Shown here: piece by piece, positions 15,396 to 39,588 of the stretch | Position numbering within the stretch: the stretch's first letter is position 1 | How the letters are laid out: the number at the start of each line of letters is the position of its first letter | IMG/VR virus record: IMGVR_UViG_3300010373_000025 | Coordinates: 1-39,804 of that record | Reading direction: 5' to 3' (one strand) | DNA length: 39,804 bases | Source: a virus | Position numbers and translations under genes: made by a program | Notes under the pieces: generated by a model | Database searches by the model: none | Seen by the model: the letters and a program-made list of their open reading frames with translations, nothing else | Told to the model about the DNA's origin: nothing

Positions 15396-15424
15396 TTGAC
15401 AAAAACCTTAAAATTAGTAATACT
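15396..15424 (+). promoter_or_regulatory. Promoter of packaging region (leaderless)
   Basis: TTGACA (15396-15401), 17-base spacer, AATACT (15419-15424), six bases, ATG 15431. Confidence 0.75.
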
Positions 15425-15430
15425 CTACCT

Positions 15431-15541
15431 ATGTTCCGTTTTATTTTGTCTTTGTTCAGACGTAAAGAATACGACCCTGAAATGATCAAATTGTTTCATA
15501 ATATTAATACGTACGAAATTACAACCATATGTCAACTGTAG
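15431..15541 (+). CDS. 36-residue leaderless small protein
   Basis: ATG 15431 lies exactly 6 bases after the -10. The product (FRFILSLFRRKEYDPEMIKLF) is amphipathic and basic. It overlaps the next gene by 13 bases and may exist mainly to couple that gene to the promoter. Unknown. Confidence 0.5.
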   Translation: MFRFILSLFRRKEYDPEMIKLFHNINTYEITTICQL

Positions 15542-16101
15542 AAGAACAAATACACCAAGGATTACCAGCTACACCACCATCAAATTCAATACTTGTAGAT
15601 ATTCTTGATGATCTTGTAAGAACGGAAATTAGCACACCTTCTGATGAATTGCCAAATAGTCAAAGTAATCCACAAGAAATAGCAATGGAAAACCCTCAAG
15701 AACAGCCACAAATTCAGGAGTTATCCACAGAGAATCCACAATTACCAACAGAACAAACCATTAACGATACTTCTATAGACCCTTCTATCGATAGCCTTTG
15801 TGATTACTGTATGCATAAAGAAAAGTATCAAACACTTATCAATGACTATTTAAGTAAAATTAAAGCACGAACAGGGGAAAAAGTAGATATACCATTTATT
15901 GAAGAAGTTGCATTACTTCTTGATGTTGATGAAGATGTATTCTTGTCATGGCTTGAAGACGTAACACATACAGAACTTATTGCAAGTATAAAAAAGATTA
16001 AGTTACTACAAAAAGTAAGACTACTTAAACGAGTAGTAGGAAGATTTAATCCAGAAGGGCCTATCTATTTACTTGAGGCATTACTTAAAATAACTATATG
16101 A
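15529..16101 (+). CDS. Putative small terminase-like DNA-binding protein
   Basis: The 190-residue product has a disordered Pro/Gln/Glu N-terminal half (1-85) and a C-terminal helical domain. CDYCMHKEKY, KVDIPFIEEVALLLDVDEDVF (HTH-like) and ASIKKIKLLQKVRLLKR are followed by a short hydrophobic end. The HTH plus IKKIK...QKVRLL layout recalls small-terminase-type packaging proteins with helix-turn-helix DNA binding. Position two genes before TerL supports this. A regulatory protein is the alternative. Confidence 0.5.
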   Translation: MSTVEEQIHQGLPATPPSNSILVDILDDLVRTEISTPSDELPNSQSNPQEIAMENPQEQPQIQELSTENPQLPTEQTINDTSIDPSIDSLCDYCMHKEKYQTLINDYLSKIKARTGEKVDIPFIEEVALLLDVDEDVFLSWLEDVTHTELIASIKKIKLLQKVRLLKRVVGRFNPEGPIYLLEALLKITI

Positions 16102-16367
16102 GATTTACTTTGCAATTTCGCATATTTACAGCTTTTACTTTAGTTTTTATCACTCTAGCCTTACTCATTGCTAATCAATATTTATTAACAAAAAGATTAC
16201 ATAGTCAAGAACAGTTTGATACTAGTGTGATGCAAAGAGATGTAGTTTTAGGAAATGAGTTAAATAAAACGAACAAGCAAATAATCTTAATGCTTAGTAC
16301 ACCTACGCCAAAAGTAACAGTCTATCCAGTAAAAAAGGTTGTAGTCACACCTGTTATTACTAAGTAA
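16098..16367 (+). CDS. 89-residue membrane protein with Pro/Thr tail
   Basis: The start overlaps the previous stop. One transmembrane helix (FTAFTLVFITLALLIANQYLL, about 10-30), a polar helical stalk, then STPTPKVTVYPVKKVVVTP. Same plan as the protein at 14076. Unknown; its place within the packaging genes is odd for a membrane protein. Confidence 0.6.
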   Translation: MRFTLQFRIFTAFTLVFITLALLIANQYLLTKRLHSQEQFDTSVMQRDVVLGNELNKTNKQIILMLSTPTPKVTVYPVKKVVVTPVITK

Positions 16368-16375
16368 AGTAAATG

Positions 16376-16384
16376 TGATATTAT
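16376..16384 (+). promoter_or_regulatory. Extended -10 promoter upstream of DUF5681-like gene
   Basis: TGATATTAT, ten bases before ATG 16395, so a leader of only about 4 nt is predicted. Confidence 0.5.
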
Positions 16385-16394
16385 TGTATGTGCT

Positions 16395-16811
16395 ATGGAT
16401 GCATCACAAGAGCCACAAGTTGTAAGCGAAGTTAAAGAACAACAAAATAACAACGAAACGCCTCCTGCAAAACCACTTACTGGGTTTCAATTACACCCTG
16501 AAAATATAAATAGAAACGGTGCGCCAAAACGATCTTGGACTTGGAAAGATTTAATTGAGGAGGCAGCTGAGGAAATGATGGAAGTAAAAGGTAAAGACGG
16601 TACTACTTCACGAAAAGCACTCAAATACTTAGTTGCACGTAAGTTATTAACTGCAGCCGCTGGTGGTAATGTAAATGCAGCGAGAGAACTTATGAATAGA
16701 ACTGATGGTATGCCAACACAACCCGTAGAACATACAGGGGAGGTTACATTAAACGTCAATGAAATGTTAGAAAAAGTATATGGAGAGACTAAACCAGACA
16801 GCACTACTTAA
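16395..16811 (+). CDS. DUF5681-like protein, candidate small terminase
   Basis: The 138-residue product has a disordered head, then INRNGAPKRSWTWKDLIEEA (about 38-57), a helical core and AAGGNVNAARELMNRTDGMPTQPVEH (about 88-113). This G-x-P-K ... GN-x-x-A ... NR-x-DG-x-P-x-Q layout is that of DUF5681-type proteins found directly before phage large-terminase genes. It overlaps TerL by 32 bases. It is the stronger of two small-terminase candidates here. Confidence 0.65.
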   Translation: MDASQEPQVVSEVKEQQNNNETPPAKPLTGFQLHPENINRNGAPKRSWTWKDLIEEAAEEMMEVKGKDGTTSRKALKYLVARKLLTAAAGGNVNAARELMNRTDGMPTQPVEHTGEVTLNVNEMLEKVYGETKPDSTT

Positions 16812-18309
16812 TTGCCTCTCAGCAGCAAAACACGCTGGCGTTCCTCGCGATCAAGCAGAAGCGTTTGTATCTCATGGATATATACCGTTAGGATGGCAGT
16901 GGGAATTTCACGCTGTAGCAAGACAAGCAGATTTACCCAATGGCCCTGTTGATATTGGTCTTGGCGGTGCAAGAGGCCCTGGTAAATCTCATGCTGTACT
17001 ATCACAAGCTGCACTCGATGATTGCCAGCGAATACCTAATCTTAAAGGCTTATTTTTACGTCAAACAGGCATAGCTGCTCAAGAATCGTTTGATGATTTA
17101 GTAGATAAAGTAGTACGTGGGAGGGTGCAGTATAAAAAAACTGGATCAGTATTATCATTTCCCAATGGCTCACGTATATTGCTAGGAGGCTTTCAGTATG
17201 AGAAAGATATAGATAAGTATATTGGTATTGAGTATGACTTTATTATTGTTGAAGAGTTAAACCAGATTACAGGAGATAAATACTTAAAACTTCGTGGTTC
17301 ACTTCGTACTTCAAAACCTAACTGGCGTCCAAGAATGTACACCTCATTTAATCCAGGGGGTATAGGTCACCAGTTTGTTAAAGAACGTTACATCTTGCCA
17401 CATATGGAAGATAAACAAAAAGAAACACGCTTTGTACCATCTACCTATCGTGAAAACCCATATCTTAACAAAGAGTACATAGGATACCTTGAAAGTTTAA
17501 CTGGTGAATTAGGTCGTGCATGGCGTGAAGGTGACTGGGATATTTTCGCTGGACAAGCATTTCCTGAGTTTAGACAAAAAACCCATGCCATTAAATCTAT
17601 TAAACCGTCAAGTAACTTTGAACATGGATTATCTATTGACTGGGGATACACTGATAAAAAACCATGTGCTTTCTCTGCTTATTTACATGCACTGATAAAG
17701 ATGAAATTACCAGATGGTCAAAACTTTAATAGGGTTATTACCTATATGGAATGGTCTGGAAATTTAAAAACGCCTAGAGAATGGGCTAAGATTATCTATG
17801 AAGATTGTTTAAAAATGGGTATCAAACTAACAAAAGGTATTGCAGACTCCTCTATTTTCAATCCTTCCAGTGACTATGGAAAAGATATTGCAGCTATCTT
17901 TATGGAAGAGTGGCGTAAGTTAAATGCTGGCGACTCATGGCTAACACTTGGTAAAGGAACAAAAGACAGAAAAGGTCGTGTTGCAACAGCTCATGATTGG
18001 CTATCAATTGCCCCAGATGGTTTACCGTATTGGATGATAACACAAAACTGTTATCAATTATTAACTACCCTACCTATTCTACAAGTAGATGAGCATAACT
18101 TTGAGGACGTAGACACAACAGGGCTAGATGATCCATACGACAGTGCCACGTACTACTTATATGGTGGCGTGAAGTTTATAGGTATCAAAGCTGGTGCATT
18201 TACCTATGGTCAAGGTGCAACGCCTGTTAAGGTGCAGTTTAACAAAGATGGTCAACAGATACCGCTTGATGTAAACGAGTGGAACAAAATGTACCCAAAG
18301 AACACTTGA
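16780..18309 (+). CDS. terL: Terminase large subunit
   Basis: The 509-residue protein shows the packaging ATPase and nuclease. Walker A is GGARGPGKS (62-70), Walker B is DFIIVEE (153-159), and the coupling-type motif is YTSFNPGG (187-194). The RNaseH-fold nuclease starts with LSIDWGY (catalytic Asp287), has further acidic residues around KGIADSSIF, and ends in a third acidic patch (about DVDTTGLDDPYD). Full length for the family. ATG 16780 overlaps the previous gene. The stop lies inside the -35 of the next promoter. Confidence 0.95.
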   Translation: MERLNQTALLNCLSAAKHAGVPRDQAEAFVSHGYIPLGWQWEFHAVARQADLPNGPVDIGLGGARGPGKSHAVLSQAALDDCQRIPNLKGLFLRQTGIAAQESFDDLVDKVVRGRVQYKKTGSVLSFPNGSRILLGGFQYEKDIDKYIGIEYDFIIVEELNQITGDKYLKLRGSLRTSKPNWRPRMYTSFNPGGIGHQFVKERYILPHMEDKQKETRFVPSTYRENPYLNKEYIGYLESLTGELGRAWREGDWDIFAGQAFPEFRQKTHAIKSIKPSSNFEHGLSIDWGYTDKKPCAFSAYLHALIKMKLPDGQNFNRVITYMEWSGNLKTPREWAKIIYEDCLKMGIKLTKGIADSSIFNPSSDYGKDIAAIFMEEWRKLNAGDSWLTLGKGTKDRKGRVATAHDWLSIAPDGLPYWMITQNCYQLLTTLPILQVDEHNFEDVDTTGLDDPYDSATYYLYGGVKFIGIKAGAFTYGQGATPVKVQFNKDGQQIPLDVNEWNKMYPKNT

Positions 18310-18335
18310 CAGGAAATAACTCTACCATATATACT
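18306..18335 (+). promoter_or_regulatory. Consensus promoter overlapping the TerL stop
   Basis: TTGACA (18306-18311, containing the TGA stop), 18-base spacer, TATACT (18330-18335), seven bases, ATG 18343. Confidence 0.75.
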
Positions 18336-18342
18336 TAAAGTG

Positions 18343-18630
18343 ATGACACATAATGATAAGGTAAAGCTTGCTAGGCAAAATAAATACATACCTACGGATA
18401 TAATTTTAGAGGATATTGCAGATACACAAGCAGAAATTAATCAAATGGAGATAGAAGCTGAATATTATGAAAGAACGCCTTTATCTTTTCCAACTGCACG
18501 ACTCGATCACATGAGGGCAGAAGTAAGACGAACAGGCATAAAAGAACGTAAAGAATTTATTGAAAAGTTAAAAGCCATATTAGAGGTAAGGCAACGCAAA
18601 ACACATGAAACAACATATAACAAGATTTAA
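18343..18630 (+). CDS. 95-residue helical protein
   Basis: Starts at ATG 18343 (or GTG 18340) at the predicted transcription start. Charged helical product (AEINQMEIEAEYYER, RAEVRRTGIKERKEFIEKLKAIL). The opening HNDKVKLARQ resembles MNHKEKVKLAKK in the gene ending at 11680. Unknown; by location a packaging or portal-associated factor. Confidence 0.65.
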   Translation: MTHNDKVKLARQNKYIPTDIILEDIADTQAEINQMEIEAEYYERTPLSFPTARLDHMRAEVRRTGIKERKEFIEKLKAILEVRQRKTHETTYNKI

Positions 18631-18781
18631 AGCAAGAGAATTATATTTATCAGGATTATCAACTAGACAAGTTGCAAATAAACTTAATGTTGGCTTTGTT
18701 TCTGTTTATCGTTAGTGCAAAGATATTGTTCGCAATAAAAGCGAATCATTAGAAGGTGAAAAGCACCCATCATATAATTGA
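18605..18781 (+). pseudogene. Small HTH gene interrupted by an in-frame TAG
   Basis: ATG 18605 opens a frame with a clear HTH (RELYLSGLSTRQVANKLN, then VGFVSVYR) that meets TAG at 18713. Reading through gives CKDIVRNKSESLEGEKHPSYN to TGA 18779, and that TGA overlaps the next start as TTGA. In this HTH type the residue before CKD is nearly always Trp, so TGG to TAG is the simplest explanation. TAG is a normal stop for other genes here. A truncated 36-residue product or suppressed readthrough are alternatives to a dead gene. Confidence 0.6.
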
Positions 18782-18906
18782 GAAAATATATAATAGCTAT
18801 TCTCATTAGATTGATATTATTATTTATTGCTGAAGTTATAGCCCACTATTTTGGAATTTTACAAGCTATACTCGTAGTTCTTGTATGGATCTTTTATAAT
18901 CTATAA
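18778..18906 (+). CDS. 42-residue membrane peptide (TTG start)
   Basis: TTG 18778 overlaps the TGA of the interrupted HTH frame. The product has two hydrophobic stretches (YIIAILIRLILLFIAEVIA and GILQAILVVLVWIFY). The coupling suggests the upstream frame was, or is, translated through its amber codon. A second TTG at 18811 could start a shorter form. Confidence 0.4.
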   Translation: MRKYIIAILIRLILLFIAEVIAHYFGILQAILVVLVWIFYNL

Positions 18907-18912
18907 TTCTTC

Positions 18913-18941
18913 TTGACAACTTCTTTTGTTAGCATTACCAT
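18913..18941 (+). promoter_or_regulatory. Promoter (leaderless) for basic small protein
   Basis: TTGACA (18913-18918), 17-base spacer, TACCAT (18936-18941), six bases, ATG 18948. Confidence 0.7.
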
Positions 18942-18947
18942 ATTGGT

Positions 18948-19139
18948 ATGGCTACAGCGTTTGCTCCTAAAAAAATGCCCTCAACGTATAAAGGTAAATC
19001 CACAGATTTAGGTAAGGGTGGTAGATCTGCCAAACTTGAAGATGAAGGTGTACCAGGCGCAGTGATTGGTGCAATTGCTAGAAAAAAAGATGCAGCTCCA
19101 GGACAAAAGTTTTATAGACCTTCTGCAAAAAAGAAATAA
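18948..19139 (+). CDS. 63-residue basic glycine/lysine-rich protein
   Basis: Leaderless start. The product (FAPKKMPSTYKGKSTDLG, GVPGAVIGAIARKKD, RPSAKKK) is strongly basic and probably extended. Possibly a DNA-binding virion or capsid-lining protein; not recognised. Confidence 0.6.
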   Translation: MATAFAPKKMPSTYKGKSTDLGKGGRSAKLEDEGVPGAVIGAIARKKDAAPGQKFYRPSAKKK

Positions 19140-19142
19140 GTC

Positions 19143-19151
19143 TGCTATATT
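19143..19151 (+). promoter_or_regulatory. Extended -10 promoter (leaderless GTG)
   Basis: TGCTATATT, six bases, GTG 19158. Confidence 0.65.
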
Positions 19152-19157
19152 AATAGT

Positions 19158-19403
19158 GTGAATGACTTTCAACACCAAGAGCCAGAACTCCCAAAACATA
19201 CAGGCGAAGAGATAACACTTCATTTAATTGCTTCAAGTACGGAAACAATGAAGTTTTGCGTGTATTGCAGAACAACAGTTTTTATTTCAAAGCATCGAGT
19301 AGTTGCAATAGCTGAAGAAGAGCCATTAAAGTTTTTGTCTCCACCTATTAAAATTCCTTGTAAAAAGTGTAGAGTAAGATATTCTATTCAGACAATTACA
19401 TAG
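19158..19403 (+). CDS. 81-residue zinc-ribbon-like protein
   Basis: GTG start placed by the promoter. CVYC (about 34-37) and CKKC (about 68-71) form a zinc site across a beta-rich middle (TVFISKHRVVAIAEEE). Unknown; just upstream of the portal gene. Confidence 0.6.
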   Translation: MNDFQHQEPELPKHTGEEITLHLIASSTETMKFCVYCRTTVFISKHRVVAIAEEEPLKFLSPPIKIPCKKCRVRYSIQTIT

Positions 19404-19405
19404 TA

Positions 19406-19414
19406 TGCTACTAT
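19406..19414 (+). promoter_or_regulatory. Extended -10 promoter of portal gene (leaderless)
   Basis: TGCTACTAT, six bases, ATG 19421. It lies in the 17-base gap after the zinc protein. Confidence 0.65.
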
Positions 19415-19420
19415 TACTGT

Positions 19421-21331
19421 ATGGATGACAAACTAATTGCACTGCACGACACAATTGTTACAGAACAAGATCCCTTAAAACTTGATTTAGCAGATGAGGA
19501 GTTTATTGAAACAATAGACGCACTTATCGACTCTTCACAAAAATACTATTTAAAAAAACAACTTTATGACAGACAGAATAAAAACCTTGACTACTACCTA
19601 GGCGATCAGTTAAAAATTGGTGGTAAAGATGGACTTAAAGAATTTCAACCTAGGTTTGTAGAAAACATTATTTACGAAGGTATTAGGCGTATTAAGCCTA
19701 TCGCCACTTCTCAACTCCCCGATTTAACAGTAAAAGGACAAGATGCTTCAATGACGACTCTTTTGTCTGATCTACTAAATACTGATGCTAAGAAAAGGTC
19801 AAATAGAAAGTTGCTAGGACTTGCTCATGTTCATGAACAACTATTTTTTTATGCTGTTATAAAAGCCCGATGGAATCAAGAAAAAGGCACAGATGGTGAT
19901 TACGAGTTTATTAATACCTTTCCTAACAATATAGTATGGGATCAAAACTGCAAAACAAATAACGCTGATGACATGATGTTTGTTGCTGAAAACGCAGATC
20001 TACGAGTAAAGCAAGTTATGATGATGTTCCCTAAAACTGCACAGGCATTACTTCATAAACTAGGATATGACCAACCAGATGAAGACGGAAAATCAACTGA
20101 GGAGCGTCTTGCCTCACCTATTAAAATATGGGAAGTATGGTTTCATTGGTGGAAAGAAACGAAAGACGATCAAGGCAATAGTAAATGGGAAAAAATCCAT
20201 GCCGTTGTGTGGAAATATGACAACTTAGTATTAGGAAAAATGCGTAACCCTTACTATGACTACGAGGGTAAGCCACGCTTGTTTGATCCTGTTATGCGTG
20301 AGAAGAATGGCATGAGTGAGTCAGAAATAATGAAGCAATATTTTGACTCATTGCAGCAGCCGGCAAATAATATTTACTACAACTATTTTAGAAATCCACG
20401 AAAACCATATTTCTTTATGGTTTATGAATCACTAGGCCGAGATCCAATAGATGAAACAAACAGAATTGAGCAAATATTAAAGTTTCAGGATCATATTAAC
20501 GACGAGGGTAGGCAAATTATTGAAATGAATGAACGATCTGCAGGTAAGGCTGTCTTCAACTCAGATGCACTAGATAAAGAAACAATCAAGTCAATTGACT
20601 GGAGAAATGTTAGACAAGCAATATCGGTAACAAGTGATGATATTAATAAATCCTTTGCTGTTGCTCAAATGCCAGCAGCTCCATCGCAATTATATGAATC
20701 AAAGCAAATGAATAGAGGCATAGCTTTTGAAATGTTAGGCTTAAACGATACAACGCGAGGTGTTAAGCCAGATGGCGACACAACACTTGGCGCATCCCAA
20801 ATGTATCGTGAACAAGATTTTGGATTTATTGATGATCTAGTTGAGGACACAATTAACGATGCTGCAGAATGGCAAGCACAATGGACAATGCAGTTTATCC
20901 GACTTTTCTATACGAAAGACCATATGCGAGAAATTATTGGAAAAGATGGAGATAGTGTATTTACAGCAATTAATCAAAACTATATAACAGATGGATTAGT
21001 AGTTGAAGTCTCTGCAAGTGCTGTTGATAAAATGATGCGAAAACAACTGGCAGTACAAAATATGAAAATGGGCGTGGGTGATCTTCTTTCTTATTACGAA
21101 GATACAAATCAAAGTAATCCAAAAGAACGTGCATATCGAGCATTTATGCAACAATCTTCCCCACAGATGTATGCACAACAATATCTTATGCCAGAAAGTA
21201 ATGCATCAAATAAACCGGACGCACAACCTGGAGCGCAAATACCTGCTTCTGTATCAACTGAACAACCACAACCAACACCAGTACAACAGACAGTACAATT
21301 TGCACCAGCAGGTGCAGCACCTCAACAATGA
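19421..21331 (+). CDS. Portal protein
   Basis: The 636-residue protein sits between TerL and scaffold/capsid and has the portal composition. It begins with an acidic N-terminal helix region; then RQNKNLDYYLGDQ (about 50-62) and FVENIIYEGIRRIKPIAT lead into the wing. A long clip/stem region with WRNVRQAISVTSDD follows, then FGFIDDLVEDTINDAAEWQ, and a Pro/Gln-rich tail (QPQPTPVQQ) of about 60 residues. The layout fits the large podovirus-type portals. It forms the dodecameric DNA channel at one capsid vertex. Confidence 0.82.
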   Translation: MDDKLIALHDTIVTEQDPLKLDLADEEFIETIDALIDSSQKYYLKKQLYDRQNKNLDYYLGDQLKIGGKDGLKEFQPRFVENIIYEGIRRIKPIATSQLPDLTVKGQDASMTTLLSDLLNTDAKKRSNRKLLGLAHVHEQLFFYAVIKARWNQEKGTDGDYEFINTFPNNIVWDQNCKTNNADDMMFVAENADLRVKQVMMMFPKTAQALLHKLGYDQPDEDGKSTEERLASPIKIWEVWFHWWKETKDDQGNSKWEKIHAVVWKYDNLVLGKMRNPYYDYEGKPRLFDPVMREKNGMSESEIMKQYFDSLQQPANNIYYNYFRNPRKPYFFMVYESLGRDPIDETNRIEQILKFQDHINDEGRQIIEMNERSAGKAVFNSDALDKETIKSIDWRNVRQAISVTSDDINKSFAVAQMPAAPSQLYESKQMNRGIAFEMLGLNDTTRGVKPDGDTTLGASQMYREQDFGFIDDLVEDTINDAAEWQAQWTMQFIRLFYTKDHMREIIGKDGDSVFTAINQNYITDGLVVEVSASAVDKMMRKQLAVQNMKMGVGDLLSYYEDTNQSNPKERAYRAFMQQSSPQMYAQQYLMPESNASNKPDAQPGAQIPASVSTEQPQPTPVQQTVQFAPAGAAPQQ

Positions 21332-21336
21332 GTTCC

Positions 21337-21365
21337 TTGACATATAGTAGAGTTATTTATATACT
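21337..21365 (+). promoter_or_regulatory. Consensus promoter
   Basis: TTGACA (21337-21342), 17-base spacer, TATACT (21360-21365), nine bases, ATG 21375. Confidence 0.7.
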
Positions 21366-21374
21366 TAGAGAGTA

Positions 21375-21734
21375 ATGAAAAAATCTCAAACTCTTCTTAA
21401 AAGTGGAACAAGCAAACAATTCGATAAGTTAAACGAAGGAGATTTAGTCTTTGCTTTCCAATGCAACCGCTTAGAAAAAGGAAACGACCAATATCAACTT
21501 GAAACAAATATGGATTGGTCTTTTGATGATCCAACCACAAACGAGGAAGTAAAAAGTTTTATTGGAAGTGTTTTATCTAGTATTGAGGACGTTTTTGGTG
21601 AAAAGATGATAACTGAAGCAATTTTACATTATGCACAGGAAAGAAATCATTTAATTATAACTCCACATGGCGTGGCTCTCAATTTTAAAAGTAAAGGCTT
21701 AAAATTTAAAGATTGGAAGGGGGGTGAAAAATAA
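21375..21734 (+). CDS. 119-residue hypothetical protein
   Basis: Leader of about 2-3 nt predicted. Mixed alpha/beta product (GDLVFAFQCNRLEKG, EVKSFIGSVLSSIEDVFGEKM) with a basic end. It overlaps the second Acb2/Tad1-like gene by TAATG, as the first copy also follows a small gene. The shared promoter suggests a two-gene accessory unit inserted between portal and scaffold. Confidence 0.65.
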   Translation: MKKSQTLLKSGTSKQFDKLNEGDLVFAFQCNRLEKGNDQYQLETNMDWSFDDPTTNEEVKSFIGSVLSSIEDVFGEKMITEAILHYAQERNHLIITPHGVALNFKSKGLKFKDWKGGEK

Positions 21735-21985: not shown

Positions 21986-21990
21986 TTTGC

Positions 21991-22010
21991 TCCAAGCCTT
22001 CGGGTTTGGA
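21991..22010 (+). other. cUUCGg hairpin after Acb2/Tad1-like copy 2
   Basis: TCCAAGCC pairs with GGTTTGGA (one G-U) around a TTCG tetraloop closed by C-G, then AGAGATTATT as after copy 1. Confidence 0.75.
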
Positions 22011-22022
22011 AGAGATTATTCC

Positions 22023-22051
22023 TTGACTATTGATTAAATAATGTGTAATAA
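22023..22051 (+). promoter_or_regulatory. Promoter of scaffold gene
   Basis: TTGACT (22023-22028), 17-base spacer, TAATAA (22046-22051), eleven bases, ATG 22063. Confidence 0.55.
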
Positions 22052-22747: not shown

Positions 22748-22777
22748 TTGACAAGTATTAGTATTTTTATACATACT
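22748..22777 (+). promoter_or_regulatory. Promoter of major capsid gene
   Basis: TTGACA (22748-22753), 18-base spacer, CATACT (22772-22777). It gives a leader of roughly 70 nt, the exception to the leaderless pattern in the head genes. Confidence 0.6.
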
Positions 22778-22806
22778 ATCAATAGATAAAGCAAAAAGGA
22801 CTATTT

Positions 22807-22848
22807 ATGTCCGCTAACTCGTTAAGAGTTCGCGGATTTTTTATTTAA
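22807..22848 (+). promoter_or_regulatory. Leader peptide with attenuator-like hairpin before capsid gene
   Basis: AAAAAGGAC precedes a 13-codon frame (ATG 22807 to TAA 22846; MSANSLRVRGFFI). Within it CCGCTAACTC (22811-22820) pairs with GAGTTCGCGG (22826-22835) with one mismatch, followed by T6. Ribosome movement over the frame would open the hairpin, a translation-dependent attenuation layout. The capsid ATG at 22855 is in the same frame, 6 bases after this stop. Confidence 0.5.
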
Positions 22849-22854
22849 AAAAAT

Positions 22855-24024
22855 ATGTTACTAAAACAATCATTTAATACACAACCAAGTTTTCTTAGTA
22901 AATCTCTTTCTTTTGCAGACGAACTTCAACTTAAAGCACCAAATAAAACAGCTAACGTAACACCAGATGGATTGTCATATGGTACTAGAGTTTCTAACTT
23001 TAACTACCAAATGGAGTTGGCTACAATCGTTGACTCTATTCTTAACTCCACAACTCTTGCATCACATATTCTTTACAACGCTAAAAACTTCAATAGATAT
23101 ACACTTCTCAAAACAATCAAAGCAATAAGACGAACACAGTTCCAAGAAGTATCAGGACTTGAGCCATTGAACGGTGCAGCAGAAAACGTCACCATTCAAA
23201 TGGCATTTAATCGTGCATTATTCTCAATGCCTACAGTTAAGATTTTGTCTGAAGCATTTGCTAGACAGTATGATCAGGGAATTGACTACGATCAGTTTGA
23301 ATATGAAGACGTACTAGACGAAACGCTTTATGGTTTGACAAATGTATTCTTTACAGGTGGTACAAACTTTGTTGGTCTTAATCAATTGACTGATGATGGT
23401 ACAACTTATGATGATATTGGAGGAGCTAGTCGAGCTACCTATTCTGTACTTAAAGGTAAAGTACAAGATATGAGTGGTACAGGATCACTTTCAAAGATTG
23501 CAACAATGTATAGTGCTATTTCTGATACAGGACCTAATGAAACCCCTTCGCTTATTGCTACAACTTTTGATGTATTTGATCTTATCGAATCTTTGTATCT
23601 TCCAACAGTACGACATGAATACAAAACACTTCCAGTTGGAGGACGATACCCAACAGCACATGCAGCAGATGGTATGGGAAATGGATTCCAAACTATGGAC
23701 TGGAGAGGTATTCCAATTTTGAGAGATAAAGCTATTGCAGCAGGGTATGGTTATATGCTTAACTTAAATTACCTTGGATATTATGGCGATCAAAAAGTAC
23801 CACCTGCATTTAGTAAATTCTTGACACCTGTTAAACTTGGTAAATCAAGTGTCAAAGAAGGACAGTCAACAATGCGACCATCTGATTATGCAGGGTTCTT
23901 CTTCCAAGAAGAGCAAATGATGCCAAATAATGGTGGTACAATCGGACGATTCTGGATTTCAGGACAGTTGACGTCATTCCAACCAAGACGTCAAGGAAGG
24001 TGGATTAACTTTAACGGAGTTTAA
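22855..24024 (+). CDS. Major capsid protein (HK97-fold)
   Basis: The 389-residue product follows scaffold. Features consistent with the HK97 coat fold are an extended N-arm, the VSNFNYQMELATIVDSIL region, a spine-helix-like TLLKTIKAIRRTQF, a P-domain segment, EDVLDETLYGLTNVFFTGGT, a late loop rich in Gly/Pro, and WISGQLTSFQPRRQGRW near the C-terminus. The start has no Shine-Dalgarno of its own; it could be reinitiated after the leader frame. ATG 22855 is the only reasonable start before the conserved region. Confidence 0.8.
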   Translation: MLLKQSFNTQPSFLSKSLSFADELQLKAPNKTANVTPDGLSYGTRVSNFNYQMELATIVDSILNSTTLASHILYNAKNFNRYTLLKTIKAIRRTQFQEVSGLEPLNGAAENVTIQMAFNRALFSMPTVKILSEAFARQYDQGIDYDQFEYEDVLDETLYGLTNVFFTGGTNFVGLNQLTDDGTTYDDIGGASRATYSVLKGKVQDMSGTGSLSKIATMYSAISDTGPNETPSLIATTFDVFDLIESLYLPTVRHEYKTLPVGGRYPTAHAADGMGNGFQTMDWRGIPILRDKAIAAGYGYMLNLNYLGYYGDQKVPPAFSKFLTPVKLGKSSVKEGQSTMRPSDYAGFFFQEEQMMPNNGGTIGRFWISGQLTSFQPRRQGRWINFNGV

Positions 24025-25556: not shown

Positions 25557-25565
25557 TGATATACT
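25557..25565 (+). promoter_or_regulatory. Perfect extended -10 promoter (leaderless)
   Basis: TGATATACT, six bases, ATG 25572, in a 19-base intergenic gap. Confidence 0.7.
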
Positions 25566-25571
25566 TTTCTT

Positions 25572-26102
25572 ATGAAGTATTTAGGATCATTCCCACGAGA
25601 TAATAATTTTGTTGCAGATCCTTCTCATGGTTGCCTCGCTAATGTAAGTAAAACACTCACTGCAAATGCTACGACTGCCAATGTGCCTATTTTTAAAGTA
25701 ACAGGTGCTGTTCAGATTTTAGGTATATGGGGAATAGTAACAACAGTTTTAGGTGCAAATAATACTGCTGCCTATTGGAGACTTAACGATCAGACAAATC
25801 AATCTGCAATAACTTTAGCAACAGGTACAACGCTTTCTGCAGCTCCTGTAGGATCAATGATAGTTAAAAAAGGACTTGCTGGTGCAGCTTTGACACTTCT
25901 TTCTGCTAGTCAAAGTAGAGTATCAGAACCAACCACACTTGAAACAGATTTTTTCTCACCATTTGTAGTTACAGAATTACCAGGAGCAGAGACAGATATT
26001 GAGTTTGTCTATACAACCACAGATGCTCCAACAAGTGGCGTAATTGAGTTTTTTGTTAGATGGCTTCCTTTGTCAGATACTGCACAAATAACTACATTGT
26101 AA
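25572..26102 (+). CDS. 176-residue virion-type beta protein
   Basis: Leaderless start. Beta-rich, with ANVSKTLTANATTANVPIF and GVIEFFVRWLPLSD near the end. The composition and size match its neighbour at 25001, so it may be another decoration or fibre protein. Not recognised by family. Confidence 0.55.
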   Translation: MKYLGSFPRDNNFVADPSHGCLANVSKTLTANATTANVPIFKVTGAVQILGIWGIVTTVLGANNTAAYWRLNDQTNQSAITLATGTTLSAAPVGSMIVKKGLAGAALTLLSASQSRVSEPTTLETDFFSPFVVTELPGAETDIEFVYTTTDAPTSGVIEFFVRWLPLSDTAQITTL

Positions 26103-26103: not shown

Positions 26104-26132
26104 TTGACTAATACTATTTACTCTACTATACT
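26104..26132 (+). promoter_or_regulatory. Near-consensus promoter (leaderless)
   Basis: TTGACT (26104-26109), 17-base spacer, TATACT (26127-26132), six bases, ATG 26139. The clearest full example of the pattern. Confidence 0.8.
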
Positions 26133-26138
26133 AAGTTT

Positions 26139-26426
26139 ATGCTAGAACCCTTAAATACCACTGATCCAGATGAATTAGTGAGTATTATCAATCCTTCTGC
26201 AAATGATTTTACCCTTGAAGTTGTTGATATACATAGTAAAACACGAGATATAATTACCTATACTGTCAAAGCACGTGAGAGCTTAAAGCTACCTCGATAC
26301 GCTGCAAATCATGTATCAGAACGACTAGCACAACGGATGGAAAGTAAAAAGACAGGCGTACTTACGCAGGCATATCATAAGTTGCTATTAGGTCAAATAC
26401 GCATGTATGAATGGGAGGAAGAATGA
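26139..26426 (+). CDS. 95-residue protein, relative of the 27237 gene product
   Basis: IINPSANDFTLEVVDI followed by an exposed beta domain and a basic helix (SERLAQRMESKK). The I-x-NPS-x-x-DFT opening recurs at the start of the 204-residue protein at 27237 (IHNPSEEDFTFYY), suggesting the two share a domain. The stop overlaps the next start (ATGA). Unknown function. Confidence 0.6.
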   Translation: MLEPLNTTDPDELVSIINPSANDFTLEVVDIHSKTRDIITYTVKARESLKLPRYAANHVSERLAQRMESKKTGVLTQAYHKLLLGQIRMYEWEEE

Positions 26427-27851: not shown

Positions 27852-27872
27852 TAACAATAAGTATGTTAGTTT
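27844..27872 (+). promoter_or_regulatory. Promoter (leaderless)
   Basis: TTGTGT (27844-27849), 17-base spacer ending TGT, TAGTTT (27867-27872), six bases, ATG 27879. Weak hexamers but exact spacing. Confidence 0.5.
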
Positions 27873-27878
27873 AATAAT

Positions 27879-28400
27879 ATGAGTAAGTTATATCAAACGC
27901 TAGAACAAGTATTTAAGATGAGAATTAACTCTAATTCAGAGATAATTCCATATATTAAGAAACTTGCTGAAATGGGCAAGTTTGATGAACCTAAGAAAAT
28001 AGCTGCAATTGCTATTCTTCTTGACCGGCTAGGTAAGTTAGAAGATGACGCAGATATGGAAAAATCCTTGTCTGATATTGCAACTGATACGACTATTTCA
28101 CCATCTACCCCTGCAGAAACGCTTTCTAGCGAATCTAGCGAGGTCGCAGCCACACCACAAACACCATTGCAATCAGAACCTTCAGCACTTGAAGATCAAA
28201 TATCAAATCCAAATGCAACACCTATTGTTTCTACACCAGTTGAGCCAACTTCTCAACTAGAACAACCTGTCACAGAAGCACCTAAAACACCAGAGGAAAC
28301 TACACCGCCTATAGATACTGCTCCTACTGTTACAGAATTTACACCTGAGAATATTACCGATCCAACCCCTGCAACTAATGACTCTACAACAACTGCATAG
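27879..28400 (+). CDS. 173-residue protein with long disordered Pro/Thr tail
   Basis: Residues 1-65 form a helical domain (YQTLEQVFKMRINSN, KKIAAIAILLDRLGKLEDD). The remaining 110 residues are Pro/Thr/Ser/Glu repeats (TPAETLSSESSEV, PKTPEETTPPID). Such tails are common in this genome. Unknown function. Confidence 0.6.
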   Translation: MSKLYQTLEQVFKMRINSNSEIIPYIKKLAEMGKFDEPKKIAAIAILLDRLGKLEDDADMEKSLSDIATDTTISPSTPAETLSSESSEVAATPQTPLQSEPSALEDQISNPNATPIVSTPVEPTSQLEQPVTEAPKTPEETTPPIDTAPTVTEFTPENITDPTPATNDSTTTA

Positions 28401-28402: not shown

Positions 28403-28411
28403 TGCTACACT
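28403..28411 (+). promoter_or_regulatory. Extended -10 promoter (leaderless GTG)
   Basis: TGCTACACT, six bases, GTG 28418. It lies in the 17-base gap after the TAG stop of the previous gene. Confidence 0.65.
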
Positions 28412-28417
28412 AATAGC

Positions 28418-29398
28418 GTGAGGTATACTTATTCTCAATTAGTACAAGATAGTCAAGACCTTTGTATAGATGATACGTCAACAACGTATACAGGGCTTTC
28501 AGATACAAAAACATTTATTAAACGTGAAATCAATAATGTAAATACTGATATATTTAATCTTCTAAAAAACTACAAACTCCAACCGCCTCCATATACTGAT
28601 ACAACTGTTGCAAATCAAATTTATTACACTTTTAGACCTGGGTTTTCAAAACTTACATCTCTTACTGTTAGTGTAGGAACATATATCCCTCCACTTCGTA
28701 TAGTTGAGACTGAAGATGAATGGAACGCACTTCAACAAGTACCTGTTACTTCAGCATGGCCTACTCATGTTTATCCTAGGCGTGATGATTTTGGTCTATA
28801 CCCTACGCCACAAACCGCTTACACAATGACAATATCAGGGATATGGATTCCGACAAACATGACCACAGATGATAATAAGGATGGAACAATTGCATGGACA
28901 AATGGTAGCACTGCAATTGTTGGAACAAATACAACCTTTAATGCTGCAATGGTTGGCTCATGGCTTGGAACAACAGCAAGTGATGGTACATTTAATAGTA
29001 ATTTATACCGCATTGCAACATATACAGATGCAACACACATTACAGTAGATAGAAAAGTTATTGATACAACAGGTTCAGGACTAAGTTATATTATTGGTCA
29101 ATCCCCAGAGATTCCAGAAGATTTACACCAATTTATTCCCTATCGTGTTGCAGCAGCATACTATGGAATTAGACGCAGAAATCCAACACTTGCACAATCG
29201 TATCTTAATTATTTCTGGACTGGTGATTATAACAATGGAAAACGTGAGGGCGAAGTACAAGGTGGAGTATTAAATGTTCTTCGTGACTTACTGCAAAAAG
29301 GTAGGTCAAATAGTGGCCTTGTTGAAACAGGGGGAACCTATGGCAACTTGGACGTTATCAGAGATGCCTCATGGACGAGTATTATAACCGCACCGTAA
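28418..29398 (+). CDS. Head-tail adaptor (tail tubular A / gp4-like)
   Basis: The 326-residue product starts with a helical adaptor segment (SQLVQDSQDLCIDD, FIKREINNVNTDIF), continues with an all-beta insert (about 120-215) and ends in helices (HQFIPYRVAAAYYGIRRRN, SYLNYFWTGDYNNG). The helix-beta-helix layout and its position before the large beta-propeller-like protein match podovirus adaptor proteins. GTG start is set by the promoter. Confidence 0.6.
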   Translation: MRYTYSQLVQDSQDLCIDDTSTTYTGLSDTKTFIKREINNVNTDIFNLLKNYKLQPPPYTDTTVANQIYYTFRPGFSKLTSLTVSVGTYIPPLRIVETEDEWNALQQVPVTSAWPTHVYPRRDDFGLYPTPQTAYTMTISGIWIPTNMTTDDNKDGTIAWTNGSTAIVGTNTTFNAAMVGSWLGTTASDGTFNSNLYRIATYTDATHITVDRKVIDTTGSGLSYIIGQSPEIPEDLHQFIPYRVAAAYYGIRRRNPTLAQSYLNYFWTGDYNNGKREGEVQGGVLNVLRDLLQKGRSNSGLVETGGTYGNLDVIRDASWTSIITAP

Positions 29399-33026: not shown

Positions 33027-33037
33027 AAAGTATAACT

Positions 33038-33301: not shown

Positions 33302-33662
33302 TAGGTATTTCAATTGATGATTTTGAGGCAGCACTTGAACCATCTGAGGCAACAATAGGGGATTTTCTCACTAACTTCACGCCATTAAATGATGGTTCAT
33401 CATCTTTAAATCCTGTTTTTAAACCTAATACCTCAGCATGACGTTGTGACTCTTGAATATATGCATTATACATAACATCAGTTAAAGTAAGAGAAGTAGG
33501 TTTTTCACCTGTTAAACCAATGCATAACTGGATAAAATTCTCTAAAAATTGAATAATTTGAAGCCCTGGCCCATTTTGTTCTTGTGGTTGGTTTGGATTC
33601 ATACGTTTTTCTAATTCTTGCTTTGCTAATTTTCTAATAGCTTTTTCTGTTTTCTGTGACAT
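33294..33662 (-). CDS. 122-residue minus-strand hypothetical protein
   Basis: ATG 33662 lies 5 bases after its -10. Helical and basic head (KTEKAIRKLAKQELEKRM), central LQIIQFLENFIQLCIG, disordered Ser-rich tail. Part of a minus-strand block embedded in the late region. Unknown. Confidence 0.6.
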   Translation of the reverse strand: MSQKTEKAIRKLAKQELEKRMNPNQPQEQNGPGLQIIQFLENFIQLCIGLTGEKPTSLTLTDVMYNAYIQESQRHAEVLGLKTGFKDDEPSFNGVKLVRKSPIVASDGSSAASKSSIEIPTK

Positions 33663-33667
33663 AATTA

Positions 33668-33697
33668 ATATTACTCTACCTTATTAGGTATTGTCAA
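33668..33697 (-). promoter_or_regulatory. Minus-strand promoter (leaderless)
   Basis: On the minus strand: TTGACA (33697-33692), 18-base spacer, TAATAT (33673-33668), five bases, ATG 33662. Confidence 0.7.
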
Positions 33698-33700
33698 TGA

Positions 33701-34063: not shown

Positions 34064-34323
34064 ATCTTAAAATTTTCTCTAAATACTTTTTCTCGTGCCT
34101 CATCTACTTTCTCCTCACCACTTTCTACATAGTCAATATCTTCTTGGGTAGGATATTCAATGATGCCAGCTTTAACAGCACCACGTATTAAAGCATTTTT
34201 TTGAGGTATTTTGGACACAGGTTGTATCCTTTCTGTATCCACTTTGTGTCCAGACCTTCCTAGAAAATAACCTACTAGAAGAAATACTAAGGCAATACCA
34301 ACAGAAAATAATTGCTCAATCAT
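34060..34323 (-). CDS. 87-residue single-pass membrane protein
   Basis: One N-terminal transmembrane helix (LFSVGIALVFLLVGYFLG, about 5-22), then a charged cytoplasmic-like domain (QEDIDYVESGEEKVDEA). ATGA overlaps on both sides show a tight operon. A superinfection-exclusion type role is possible but unsupported. Confidence 0.65.
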   Translation of the reverse strand: MIEQLFSVGIALVFLLVGYFLGRSGHKVDTERIQPVSKIPQKNALIRGAVKAGIIEYPTQEDIDYVESGEEKVDEAREKVFRENFKI

Positions 34324-34496
34324 AATGTAATAGTAGCAGGTTTTTTCTTTCCCTTTTTACCTGCTTTTACCGCTACTTCATGCGTAAACTTATATGCTAC
34401 TCCTTTTTTATGTGCAGTTAGTCCTCCTAATCTAGCAAATTCTTTTCTTTTCTCAGGGTTCATTGAGGCAAAACCACGATTTTTTATATTAGACAT
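34320..34496 (-). CDS. 58-residue KGG-motif protein
   Basis: On the minus strand from ATG 34496. NRGFASMNPEKRKEFARLGG (6-25) then TAHKKG and FTHEVAVKAGKKGKKK match the KGG-type repeats of bacterial general-stress and Con-10-like proteins (RGFAxMxPEKxxExxxxGG). These are small, basic, intrinsically disordered proteins, some thought to bind nucleic acid; their role is poorly known. First gene of the minus-strand operon behind a strong promoter. Confidence 0.75.
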   Translation of the reverse strand: MSNIKNRGFASMNPEKRKEFARLGGLTAHKKGVAYKFTHEVAVKAGKKGKKKPATITL

Positions 34497-34505
34497 AGAG
34501 GTTTT

Positions 34506-34534
34506 ATTGTAGAGTTTTTGTAAACTATTGTCAA
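34506..34534 (-). promoter_or_regulatory. Consensus minus-strand promoter of the KGG operon
   Basis: On the minus strand: TTGACA (34534-34529), 17-base spacer, TACAAT (34511-34506), nine bases, ATG 34496. Its -35 overlaps the -35 of the divergent late promoter. Confidence 0.75.
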
Positions 34535-34555
34535 AAATACTGAATGTGCTACTAT
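34528..34555 (+). promoter_or_regulatory. Late promoter divergent from the KGG operon
   Basis: TTGTCA (34528-34533), 16-base spacer ending TGC, TACTAT (34550-34555). The two divergent promoters share the same -35 bases, so they cannot be occupied together. Confidence 0.65.
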
Positions 34556-34574
34556 AAGAGTGAAAGCTATTTAT

Positions 34575-34604
34575 GCTACACCTGTTAGGGTTGTAGCTAT
34601 TTTT
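34575..34604 (+). promoter_or_regulatory. Attenuator-like hairpin in leader of 34610 gene
   Basis: GCTACACC (34575-34582) pairs with GGTTGTAGC (34589-34597, one bulged T), followed by TATTTTT. It lies between promoter and ATG 34610. A frame from GTG 34560 reads through it and overlaps the gene start (34 codons to TAA 34662), similar to the leader frame before the capsid gene. Confidence 0.45.
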
Positions 34605-34609
34605 GTATT

Positions 34610-35353
34610 ATGGGAGCAAATGACGGAACACAACCAATACCATTTGATAATTCAGCAGCAGTAAATTTTACACCTACTGCTTCTCCAATACCTCAAACAC
34701 AGGCAGATTATAAAAATCTTGAGACAGGATTTTCTAATGCTATAAATGCTCAGCCAACCGTACCTCAACTAATGGGAAAATATAATGCACAATATGGAGT
34801 TCCCCAACTACAACAACGTGTGCAAGGAGATCAAGCAACAGCAGATAAAATAGGAACACAAATAGATATGGCTCCTAAGACTATTGCACAAACTAGCCAA
34901 CAGTCAATTATGACACAAGGACAAAAAGATGCTGCAGTGCAAAATCTTACACAGCCTTTACAACAAGAATTAACAAATGTAAATAAGGATCAATCAGAAG
35001 GGCAACAAGCATTAACTGCTGCAGATACAAATGCAAAAGATATGGTCGCAGCAGAACAAGCACAGCAAACAAAACAATTGCAGCCTTGGACTCAGGCTTT
35101 TAAAGATCAAGATGTTATAGCAGCAGAACAAATGACAGGGTGGACAAATGAAAATGCACAACAATTACAGGTACTTCTTGCAAATCAAGCAACTGGAAAA
35201 GAATTAACTATGAATGAACAAAATAATTTAGAAAAATTAGCACAACAAGAGCAACAATTTGAAGATACATTGAAAACAAATGCAGCACAAGAAACCAACG
35301 CACAAAATCTTTATCAATTTGAGAATCCCGATCCATTAGGGATTTTAGCATGA
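34610..35353 (+). CDS. Gln-rich putative internal virion protein
   Basis: The 247-residue product is rich in Gln, Ala, Thr and Asn and largely helical (QQRVQGDQATADKIG, QQALTAADTNAKDM, LQVLLANQATGKELTM). It starts the last late block before the 711-residue protein, the usual place for podovirus ejection proteins. No enzymatic motif. The stop TGA forms part of the next promoter. Confidence 0.55.
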   Translation: MGANDGTQPIPFDNSAAVNFTPTASPIPQTQADYKNLETGFSNAINAQPTVPQLMGKYNAQYGVPQLQQRVQGDQATADKIGTQIDMAPKTIAQTSQQSIMTQGQKDAAVQNLTQPLQQELTNVNKDQSEGQQALTAADTNAKDMVAAEQAQQTKQLQPWTQAFKDQDVIAAEQMTGWTNENAQQLQVLLANQATGKELTMNEQNNLEKLAQQEQQFEDTLKTNAAQETNAQNLYQFENPDPLGILA

Positions 35354-35359
35354 TAACAT
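35351..35359 (+). promoter_or_regulatory. Extended -10-like promoter overlapping a stop codon
   Basis: TGATAACAT, six bases, ATG 35366. The TG belongs to the TGA stop of the previous gene. Confidence 0.5.
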
Positions 35360-35365
35360 AAAACT

Positions 35366-35869
35366 ATGGCAACAAAAGCAACATCAGCATCAACAGCACA
35401 AGCAGCAGGAGTAAAAACACCTGTAAGTGGAGCATATTCTGATCCAGCACAAGTTGGAGCTATGATAAAACAAATGTATCCACAATATGCTAATTTTGAT
35501 CCAGTTACAATTGGTCAACGATGGATAGATATGCATGCTGCAACAGCAGGTGGTGCAGGATCAGGAGCTGGTACTGACGTTTTATCTGGGCCAACAGGTA
35601 CAACAGCAACAACTTCTACAGATGTAAGTCAACAAGCACCAGATTTATCTGGACTAGCTCAGTTTGCATCCCCTGTACCACAATCAAAACCACAACCTGC
35701 TCCTGTTTCTTTAAGTGCAGGATTAAACGCACTTAATAACAATATGGGAGGCGTAAACGGAATGGGACAAGCAAGCACACCTTATACAACTCAGCCACAA
35801 ACACAACAACAACCAAAATCTAAGCCTTTAGCATCAAGCACTTTTGATATAAGCAAAGTGAGGTTTTAA
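35366..35869 (+). CDS. 167-residue Ala/Thr/Gln/Pro-rich protein
   Basis: A short helical domain (DPAQVGAMIKQMYPQYANF, then DPVTIGQRWIDMH, about 26-60) is followed by 100 disordered residues. Possibly an ejection or internal virion protein. It overlaps no gene but the next start is one base away with GAGG upstream. Confidence 0.55.
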   Translation: MATKATSASTAQAAGVKTPVSGAYSDPAQVGAMIKQMYPQYANFDPVTIGQRWIDMHAATAGGAGSGAGTDVLSGPTGTTATTSTDVSQQAPDLSGLAQFASPVPQSKPQPAPVSLSAGLNALNNNMGGVNGMGQASTPYTTQPQTQQQPKSKPLASSTFDISKVRF

Positions 35870-35870
35870 T

Positions 35871-38006: not shown

Positions 38007-38015
38007 TGATATACT
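38007..38015 (+). promoter_or_regulatory. Perfect extended -10 promoter (leaderless)
   Basis: TGATATACT, six bases, ATG 38022, immediately after the TAG stop of the previous gene. The nine bases are identical to the promoter at 25557. Confidence 0.7.
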
Positions 38016-38021
38016 AATATT

Positions 38022-38459
38022 ATGAATCCAGGACTTTCACCAGCGGTACAAGCAGCATTAGCTCGTAGAAATATGGGGGCACCTATTCCACAACTTCAAC
38101 AAGTCTCTCCATCTATGCCTATGGCAAGCGGTACACCACCTTCACCTATTCCACAGTCTGCCATGAATAAATCTAGTGCAATGCCTAGTCAACCTAAAGC
38201 ACCTAGTCAAAAATATCAGCCACAAAACCAGTCAGATATGATTACTCAGGCTCTTGTTGAACAATTAAAAAACAATAACAAACTGGAACAACAGAAGCTA
38301 AAAGTTGCACAAGGACAATCAATACAACCACCAACGCCACAAGTGCCACAATTTAATCAAACACCACCTCAAAATAGTGGTAATGTGTTTGGAAGTACTA
38401 CATCTACGGCAACTTCAAATATGCAAGGTGGTAATCCACTTAGTGCTGGCCCCTTCTAA
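38022..38459 (+). CDS. 145-residue Pro/Gln-rich disordered protein
   Basis: Low complexity throughout (SPAVQAALARRNMGAPI, QPKAPSQKYQPQ) with one helix (DMITQALVEQLKNNNKLEQQ, about 74-93). Likely a virion accessory or ejection-associated protein. Not recognised. Confidence 0.55.
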   Translation: MNPGLSPAVQAALARRNMGAPIPQLQQVSPSMPMASGTPPSPIPQSAMNKSSAMPSQPKAPSQKYQPQNQSDMITQALVEQLKNNNKLEQQKLKVAQGQSIQPPTPQVPQFNQTPPQNSGNVFGSTTSTATSNMQGGNPLSAGPF

Positions 38460-38461
38460 TA

Positions 38462-38470
38462 TGCTATATT
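38462..38470 (+). promoter_or_regulatory. Extended -10 promoter
   Basis: TGCTATATT, eight bases, ATG 38479. The nine bases are identical to the promoter at 19143. Confidence 0.6.
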
Positions 38471-38478
38471 AATAAAGT

Positions 38479-39588
38479 ATGGCAATAGACCACAGCGTAA
38501 TAGATAGTAATTTTAAAGGCAGCTTAACAGTTATAGATCATACTACAGATAATCCTTTTGCTGTTGAAGGGGATAGTAGTTTAGGTGTAGCCTACATACA
38601 AATAGTAGATAATAGTGGAACGCCTATTGTCTCTTTTGGTGGAGGTACACAATACACTGATGCTGGTACGCCACCAACTCATCCTATTGGTGGGACGATA
38701 GAATGGAATAATGGTGGCGTATGGGCAACAGTAGGTTCTGCAGCTCCTTTACCTACAAGTCTTTATCTAGGCACAAGTGCAATATCAATAGGTCAACAAA
38801 CAGCAGCTAATTCTATCCCTGTTATTTTGCCTTCAGCAACTATTACTACTCTTACCCCTCCTTCTAATACAGGATATGCTCTTGATAGTAGCCTATCAAC
38901 AATTGATACAGATTTAAAATCTAATATTACTCTCCATACTGGAACAAATATTATTGGTAAAGTAACAACAGATCAGACTACTCATGGAACCACTGATTTA
39001 GTAGCAGCAGATATTACAAAAGTAGGAGGTGCTTCTGTTGCTCTTGGACAAAATACTATGGCTAATTCGTTACCAGTAGCGGTAGCAAGTAACCAAGCTG
39101 CAATAGCTTTATGGGGACATGGTGCTACAGGTTTAGCAGTGCCAGCTAATGCAGTGTATCATGGGGCACAAGCAAGAAGTTCTGAACAAGCAGCAGCAAC
39201 CTCTGGAAACCTCATAGGGCTTATTACGGATCTTGTTGGAAAACTTATTGTTCTTCCTTATGCCAATCCTGAGAATTTTGTTAGTGGTACAACCAGTGCA
39301 ACTACTACTACCTCAACCTCACTTATTGCAGCACCAGCAGCAGGACTTAGAAACTACATTACACAAATTACGGTAGATAATACCTCTAGTACACAAACAT
39401 ATATCAATATTCAGGATGGTTCAGGAGGAACAACAATCTATCATATTCCTTTACCTGCAAATGGAGGAGCTACAATTACTCTTCCTACACCTTTAAGACA
39501 ACCCACAACTGCAACTGCTTTATTTTTTGCTTGTGGAGCAGGAGTAACTACTGCCTATATTTCTGCATCAGGGTATAAGGGAGCCTAA
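38479..39588 (+). CDS. Tail fibre / tail-associated beta protein
   Basis: The 369-residue product has an N-terminal region with GSLTVIDHTTDNPFAVEG and IEWNNGGVWATVG. A middle with repeated short units follows (SIGQQTAANSIPVIL and LGQNTMANSLPVAVASNQ), then a C-terminal beta domain (YITQITVDNTSSTQTY, IPLPANGGATITLP) resembling receptor-binding tips. Repeats of this N-SLPV-AS type occur in many phage and bacterial fibre-like proteins. Directly upstream and coupled to the gene spanning the contig ends. Confidence 0.65.
   Translation: MAIDHSVIDSNFKGSLTVIDHTTDNPFAVEGDSSLGVAYIQIVDNSGTPIVSFGGGTQYTDAGTPPTHPIGGTIEWNNGGVWATVGSAAPLPTSLYLGTSAISIGQQTAANSIPVILPSATITTLTPPSNTGYALDSSLSTIDTDLKSNITLHTGTNIIGKVTTDQTTHGTTDLVAADITKVGGASVALGQNTMANSLPVAVASNQAAIALWGHGATGLAVPANAVYHGAQARSSEQAAATSGNLIGLITDLVGKLIVLPYANPENFVSGTTSATTTTSTSLIAAPAAGLRNYITQITVDNTSSTQTYINIQDGSGGTTIYHIPLPANGGATITLPTPLRQPTTATALFFACGAGVTTAYISASGYKGA

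Follow-up and report, generated by a model that had tools for sequence, protein, structure and literature searches.

How would the mRNAs of a phage begin if many of its genes carried their own promoter, with the -10 box only about six bases before the start codon? This question is raised by the IMG/VR virus record IMGVR_UViG_3300010373_000025, which we analysed over its whole length of 39,804 bases (here called the window; ~37% G+C, ~63% A+T). An earlier note on this DNA had listed 16 starts with such promoters and read them as sources of leaderless transcripts. Our analysis makes it very probable that host sigma70-type promoters serving single genes yield leaderless or near-leaderless mRNAs started by 70S ribosomes, with Shine-Dalgarno (SD) sites serving operons and a second, hairpin-bearing leader at other genes.

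Promoters at a narrow distance from start codons

Gene starts were assigned by coding potential and open reading frame (ORF) length only, and the upstream region was ignored. A start was scored as promoter-bearing if a -10 box (score >= 3.5) was accompanied by TGn or by a -35 box of at least 5/6 at 16-18 bp, where d, the number of bases between the -10 box and the start codon, was 5-8 in an automatic test and 5-9 in a curated one. In the automatic set, 12 of 57 starts have such a promoter, compared to 0.77 expected from positions d 15-45 of the same upstream regions (p 1.5e-11); this set includes a doubtful gene (210-413, minus strand) and takes 6081 in place of 6090. The same test finds only background at internal ATGs (4/578, 3.2 expected) and at the remaining ATGs of the window (10/1289, 9.8 expected). 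With dinucleotide-shuffled upstream regions, a control of the kind the earlier note had proposed, the -10 box alone at d 5-8 was found 5 times in the real sequence and 0.34 times on average in the shuffles (maximum 3 of 200). By the curated test 17 of 62 starts qualify, against 11 of 833 internal ATG or GTG codons and 0-3 of 62 in each shifted window. Two starts in the curated set, 12864 and 39593, were entered one base off, and neither is a promoter match.

Eight of the 17 promoters have a -35 box of at least 5/6, nine have TGn, and none has both. Those with a -35 box precede the ATGs at 6090 (6054-6092, TTGACA-17-AATAAT, d=7), 15431 (15396-15433, TTGACA-17-AATACT, d=6), 18343 (18306-18345, TTGACA-18-TATACT, d=7), 18948 (18913-18950, TTGACA-17-TACCAT, d=6), 21375 (21337-21377, TTGACA-17-TATACT, d=9) and 26139 (26104-26141, TTGACT-17-TATACT, d=6) and, on the minus strand, at 33662 (33660-33697, TTGACA-18-TAATAT, d=5) and 34496 (34494-34534, TTGACA-17-TACAAT, d=9). 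These bear out the full -35 boxes at 17-18 bp that had been described. Extended -10 boxes with d=6 precede the ATGs at 13733 (13718-13735, TGT-TATGAT), 19421, the portal gene (19406-19423, TGC-TACTAT), 25572 (25557-25574, TGA-TATACT), 35366 (35351-35368, TGA-TAACAT) and 38022 (38007-38024, TGA-TATACT), the GTGs at 19158 (19143-19160, TGC-TATATT) and 28418 (28403-28420, TGC-TACACT), and the minus-strand ATG at 34323 (34321-34338, TGC-TACTAT); the box at 38479 (ATG; 38462-38481, TGC-TATATT) has d=8. The sequence thus supports the claim of one promoter per gene within the structural module. The spacing is 6 in eleven promoters, 7 in two, 9 in two, and 5 and 8 in one each, so that the earlier description of a fixed spacing is right about the mode and slightly too strong for a range of 5-9.

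Four of these starts, 13733, 21375 and the minus-strand 34323 and 34496, were absent from the earlier list; the other 13 were on it. Its remaining three entries fail the two-element test, with a weak -10 box or a -35 box of only 4/6: the minus-strand ATG 2876 (2874-2888, TATACT, d=6, -35 4/6), ATG 2930 (2918-2932, AATACT, d=6, -35 4/6) and ATG 27879 (27864-27881, TGn plus TAGTTT, d=6). The divergent starts 2876 and 2930 lie within an imperfect inverted repeat, ATATCATgAGTAT / ATACTaATGATAT (2864-2945), which from its sequence looks like an operator across the two candidate promoters.

No promoter-bearing start has an SD site of at least 5/6 (0/17), compared to 11 of the 45 other curated starts, in keeping with the earlier statement that SD sites belong to the other genes. 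Each of the 17 starts has an in-frame stop 6-114 nucleotides (nt) upstream, and within 50 codons downstream none of the genes has another start preceded by an SD site. On these three grounds mis-called starts are unlikely, and we rejected them as an explanation. The set carries the signature of bacterial leaderless (TA-led) genes, a -10-like signal above chance together with a lack of SD sites.

Conservation in related phages

IMG/VR contains relatives with up to 84-85% identity in the terminase (large terminase, 16780-18309), portal (19421-21331) and capsid (major capsid protein, 22855-24024). A clade set was built from loci with a portal or capsid match, of which 62 of 81 were left after removal of near-duplicates. 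The same spacing, which the earlier note had proposed to look for in related phages, recurs there: a promoter at d 5-8 precedes 77 of 628 starts across the 62 viral contigs, compared to 7.6 expected (p 4e-51). The counts are 0 at d 3 and at d 4, 2 at d 5, 38 at d 6, 23 at d 7, 14 at d 8 and 4 at d 9. The absence of matches at d 3-4 and the abrupt increase at d 6 are expected if the transcription start (+1) must not fall within the gene. By identity tier, nearest first, the fractions are 9/70, 19/137 and 47/368, and a simpler test without the second promoter element concurs for the near relatives. Control loci, a subset of the genome contigs found via the terminase and grouped by record title, stay at background: 1/365 in Verrucomicrobia-type loci (1.0 expected), 5/429 in Clostridia-type loci (5.5 expected) and 0/54 in Chloroflexi loci.

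Six window genes were also compared with their orthologs in two relatives, L004 and L005 (ten comparisons). The promoter is retained at d 6-7 in five, although the flanks have diverged: 18948 in L004, and 19158, 25572, 26139 and 28418 (there with d=7) in L005. In two comparisons, the portal genes of L004 and L005, a hairpin-bearing leader replaces the promoter.

A second leader with a terminator-like hairpin

The earlier note was right about the promoters and their spacing, and it overlooked this second layout in the genome and the clade. In the portal and capsid genes of relatives, TGnTATAAT is followed, usually after 14-25 nt, by a terminator-like hairpin, a run of six to eight T and the start codon; the U-run often abuts the start codon with zero bases between. 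The window has two examples. The major capsid leader (22748-22857) consists of TTGACA, a CATACT -10 box recognized by eye, a GGAC/GTCC pairing, a terminator-like hairpin and T6 before ATG 22855. The leader at 34547-34612 has TGC-TACTAT, an AGC/GCT pair, a hairpin and T5 before ATG 34610. The latter gene and the divergent minus-strand 34496 share a -35 region, where TTGTCAA reads as TTGTCA rightward, for the hairpin-class leader, and as TTGACA leftward.

A hairpin with a T-run ending no more than 14 nt from the start is found at 46 of 685 starts in window and clade, compared to 10 of 2440 internal positions, and at 44 of 628 clade starts; in the Verrucomicrobia and Clostridia loci the figure is 9 of 795. 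A cassette search returned 61 examples in the clade, with the lambda-type attenuation layout of promoter, terminator-like hairpin and then first gene. Among the portals, 12 of 65 were classified as leaderless and 26 of 65 as hairpin class (with L171 and L094 reassigned to the latter); the classifier left window 22855, L004 and L208 unlabelled, though a hairpin is visible by eye. The exact pattern of the commonest cassette form has at least 111 distinct matches in viral contigs, at least 22 of them ahead of a run of five or more T. Judged by eye, the 22 T-followed matches among those listed comprise 17 clade cassettes and 5 that are apparently chance. Many relatives' capsid genes start more than 15 nt after the U-run, commonly with an AAAGGAG-type SD site in the leader, so the hairpin class is not always SD-free.

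Structure was assessed in 43 cassettes, the two of the window and 41 of the 61 picked for diversity. In the terminator stem 84% of cells are paired and 25 are doubly changed, with covariation above all 500 shuffles. A pairing of the leader GGAT with ATCC at the stem foot holds in 85% of cells, with 5 doubly changed and 1 of 500 shuffles as high. Because related sequences inflate covariation scores, we take these as support and not as proof. Leader-foot pairing of at least 4 bp occurs in 33 of 58 cassettes, compared to a mean of 19.8 and a maximum of 29 in 1000 permutations; GGAC/GTCC at 22855, AGC/GCT at 34610 and GGC/GCC in L005 are instances of leader-foot pairs. The two pairings share bases and are thus mutually exclusive. 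Minimum-energy folds retain the terminator, and the alternative stem is short.

The hairpin could be thought to do no more than end transcription of the preceding gene. We rejected this idea, since the promoter comes before the hairpin and the U-run frequently touches the ATG, often leaving no room between them. Our preferred reading is that the hairpin class would be a promoter-proximal attenuator, which may be relieved in late infection; alternatively, it could stabilize the 5' end, or give rise to a small RNA with the U-run at its end. In lambda pR'-tR' late attenuation, a promoter is followed by an intrinsic terminator in the late-gene leader. The cassettes likewise combine a promoter with a terminator-like hairpin in the leader, but they occur in several copies, with a leader of ~40 nt, a U-run often touching the AUG and no known antiterminator. 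In LicT/SacY-type RAT (ribonucleic antiterminator) elements, a leader hairpin excludes the terminator stem. The predicted leader pairing here would do the same, but with only 3-5 bp and with no binding protein identified. Pfam or PHROGs scans of 21 distinct window proteins revealed no antiterminator. We tentatively suggest, as a possibility that we would not yet favour, that the clade uses two SD-independent kinds of 5' end and that the cassettes (TGnTATAAT, a GGAT leader that could open the stem foot, and a U-run at the AUG) serve as a late switch distributed over many copies, comparable to pR'-tR', in hosts able to translate readily without SD sites.

Weighing the explanations

In the mechanism we propose, host sigma70-type promoters would drive many phage genes singly, with transcription beginning at the start codon's first base or up to ~3 nt before it; from the -10 spacing, transcripts are expected at, or within ~3 nt of, the start codon. 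70S ribosomes would initiate directly on these leaderless or near-leaderless mRNAs, and operon-internal genes would be translated via SD sites. A short leader with a terminator-like hairpin and a U-run would instead precede other key genes (34610 and the capsid gene 22855, and portal and capsid in relatives). We infer both the RNA 5' ends at start codons and the SD-free mode of translation from the DNA itself. Several observations weigh against this mechanism. The -10 boxes were scored with an untrained sigma70 matrix. No excess is seen in the most distant tier of relatives (2/53), nor in the nearest named phages, MG269973 (1/48) and MW202566 (0/51); phages with this capsid module therefore do not all share the trait. 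The promoter is lost or moved in three of the ten ortholog comparisons. Finally, many promoter-bearing genes lie 12-43 nt behind another gene with no clear terminator, so that read-through mRNA is possible.

The last point supports an explanation in which the boxes are indeed promoters, yet most of the protein is made from read-through mRNA, by 70S scanning or termination-reinitiation, and the leaderless end is incidental. The upstream in-frame stops suit it as well, and PMC9031893 treats 70S scanning as an accepted mode. However, it leaves the avoidance of d 3-4 and the pile-up at d 6-8 unexplained, and 6090 and the minus-strand 34496 are not close behind a same-strand gene; we consider it unlikely. 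A translation signal such as an A/U-rich enhancer would account for a motif close to the start codon, but not for the TGn or the TTGACA at 17-18 bp that accompanies it, which a promoter explains. In the hairpin class, moreover, TGnTATAAT precedes the hairpin by ~20 nt and lies at a good distance upstream of the ATG, which makes a translation signal very improbable. Chance has in its favour that A+T-rich DNA makes TAnnnT common before starts and single -10-like hexamers frequent. For the whole set it was rejected by four controls, since internal ATGs, other ATGs, shuffles and shifted windows all give background only, and we assign it almost no weight; individual weak members such as 2930 and 27879 may be chance. 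We thus retain single-gene promoters with leaderless or near-leaderless transcripts as the best account of these starts.

The host

In a set of 50,697 phage records, MG269973 (TM7 phage) and MW202566 (Manatee Spring phage) are the only matches of the portal and of the 28418 protein, and MW202566 is the only match of the capsid, at 22-29% identity. These shared structural genes point weakly to a host in the Patescibacteria. No Patescibacteria-titled record is among the 80 of 419 terminase matches in genome contigs that were listed, and the best cellular terminase matches are Chloroflexi contigs (44%). A Chloroflexota host was rejected: beyond the terminase, loci L008 and L009 have nothing in common with the window, other viral contigs carry terminases closer to theirs, and the portal was found in 0 of 301 Chloroflexota genomes, although a search without any match proves little. 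In the genomes behind these two loci, G001 and G002, TATAAT-6-ATG occurs 5-9 times as often as in a backward control (53 versus 10 and 37 versus 4), which had also hinted at a Chloroflexota host; hosts with many leaderless genes should show such an excess. That the phage's own host is adept at leaderless translation, as the earlier note proposed, is plausible. For the Patescibacteria, Saccharibacteria and the Candidate Phyla Radiation, a literature search in one open library brought up no paper about leaderless genes; two of its results contain the word only among their references, and one refers to leaderless translation solely in connection with the factor YchF.

Other features of the genome

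The first 123 bases of the window recur exactly at its end (1-123 = 39682-39804), which makes it likely that the record represents a complete genome. An ERF recombinase is also encoded (6491-7330). A further structured RNA on the plus strand (4150-4324) has a promoter-like TTGACA..TACGAT site, three hairpins with a long last one, and T7 abutting ATG 4322; its folding z is -6.1 over 4200-4324, and its layout is possibly related to the hairpin class. Rfam gave only matches far below the cut-offs for 4100-5800, and none at gathering score for the structured RNAs of the window. Another ~300 bases (11680-11985), mostly without an evident gene, fold at -104 kcal/mol (ViennaRNA) and are possibly a novel structured RNA; Rfam had no family at E <= 1 for 11660-12000. 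By eye, tandem six-base GGAGCN units were seen at 7941-8180 (region 7940-8155), and tandem 12-base GGGCTCAAGTAA-like units at 10240-10560, within ORF 10015-11235. In a distant relative, L003, the terminase enters a stretch at 10560-10700 that by eye resembles the start of an intein.

Relation to known leaderless genes

Leaderless genes have been described in phages singly or in small numbers, and the lambda cI mRNA is leaderless. PMC9031893 names lambda cI among leaderless mRNAs and states that 70S ribosomes translate them, and PMC4488713 describes leaderless PY54 cI and cro mRNAs with +1 mapped on the AUG by RACE (rapid amplification of cDNA ends). Those cases concern one or two regulatory genes, whereas here 17 of 62 starts are involved, including the portal and other genes of the structural module, with predicted 5' ends. 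In Cluster O mycobacteriophages, PL1, PR2 and PL2 are predicted SigA promoters with +1 on the gene's first base (PMC4351075), but these are three promoters, and the accessible part of that paper tells of neither a per-gene arrangement nor a promoter-hairpin-ATG cassette. The AR9 paper notes that transcripts of phages are often leaderless (PMC5312081). In bacteria, a TA-like signal ~10-12 bp upstream marks leaderless genes (Zheng et al., 2011, PMC3160421). The window genes resemble these in having TAnnnT ~10-12 bp before the start and lacking an SD site. They differ from that survey in belonging to the structural module of a low-GC phage, in carrying TGn or -35 boxes and in being conserved across a clade. 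Our search of the same open library found no report of the promoter-hairpin-AUG cassette.

If true, per-gene leaderless use across the structural module of this clade would change annotation, both of start sites and of operons, and the phage pattern would inform on translation in uncultivated hosts. The promoter-hairpin-AUG cassette is compact and conserved, and it lends itself to tests in a common laboratory strain.

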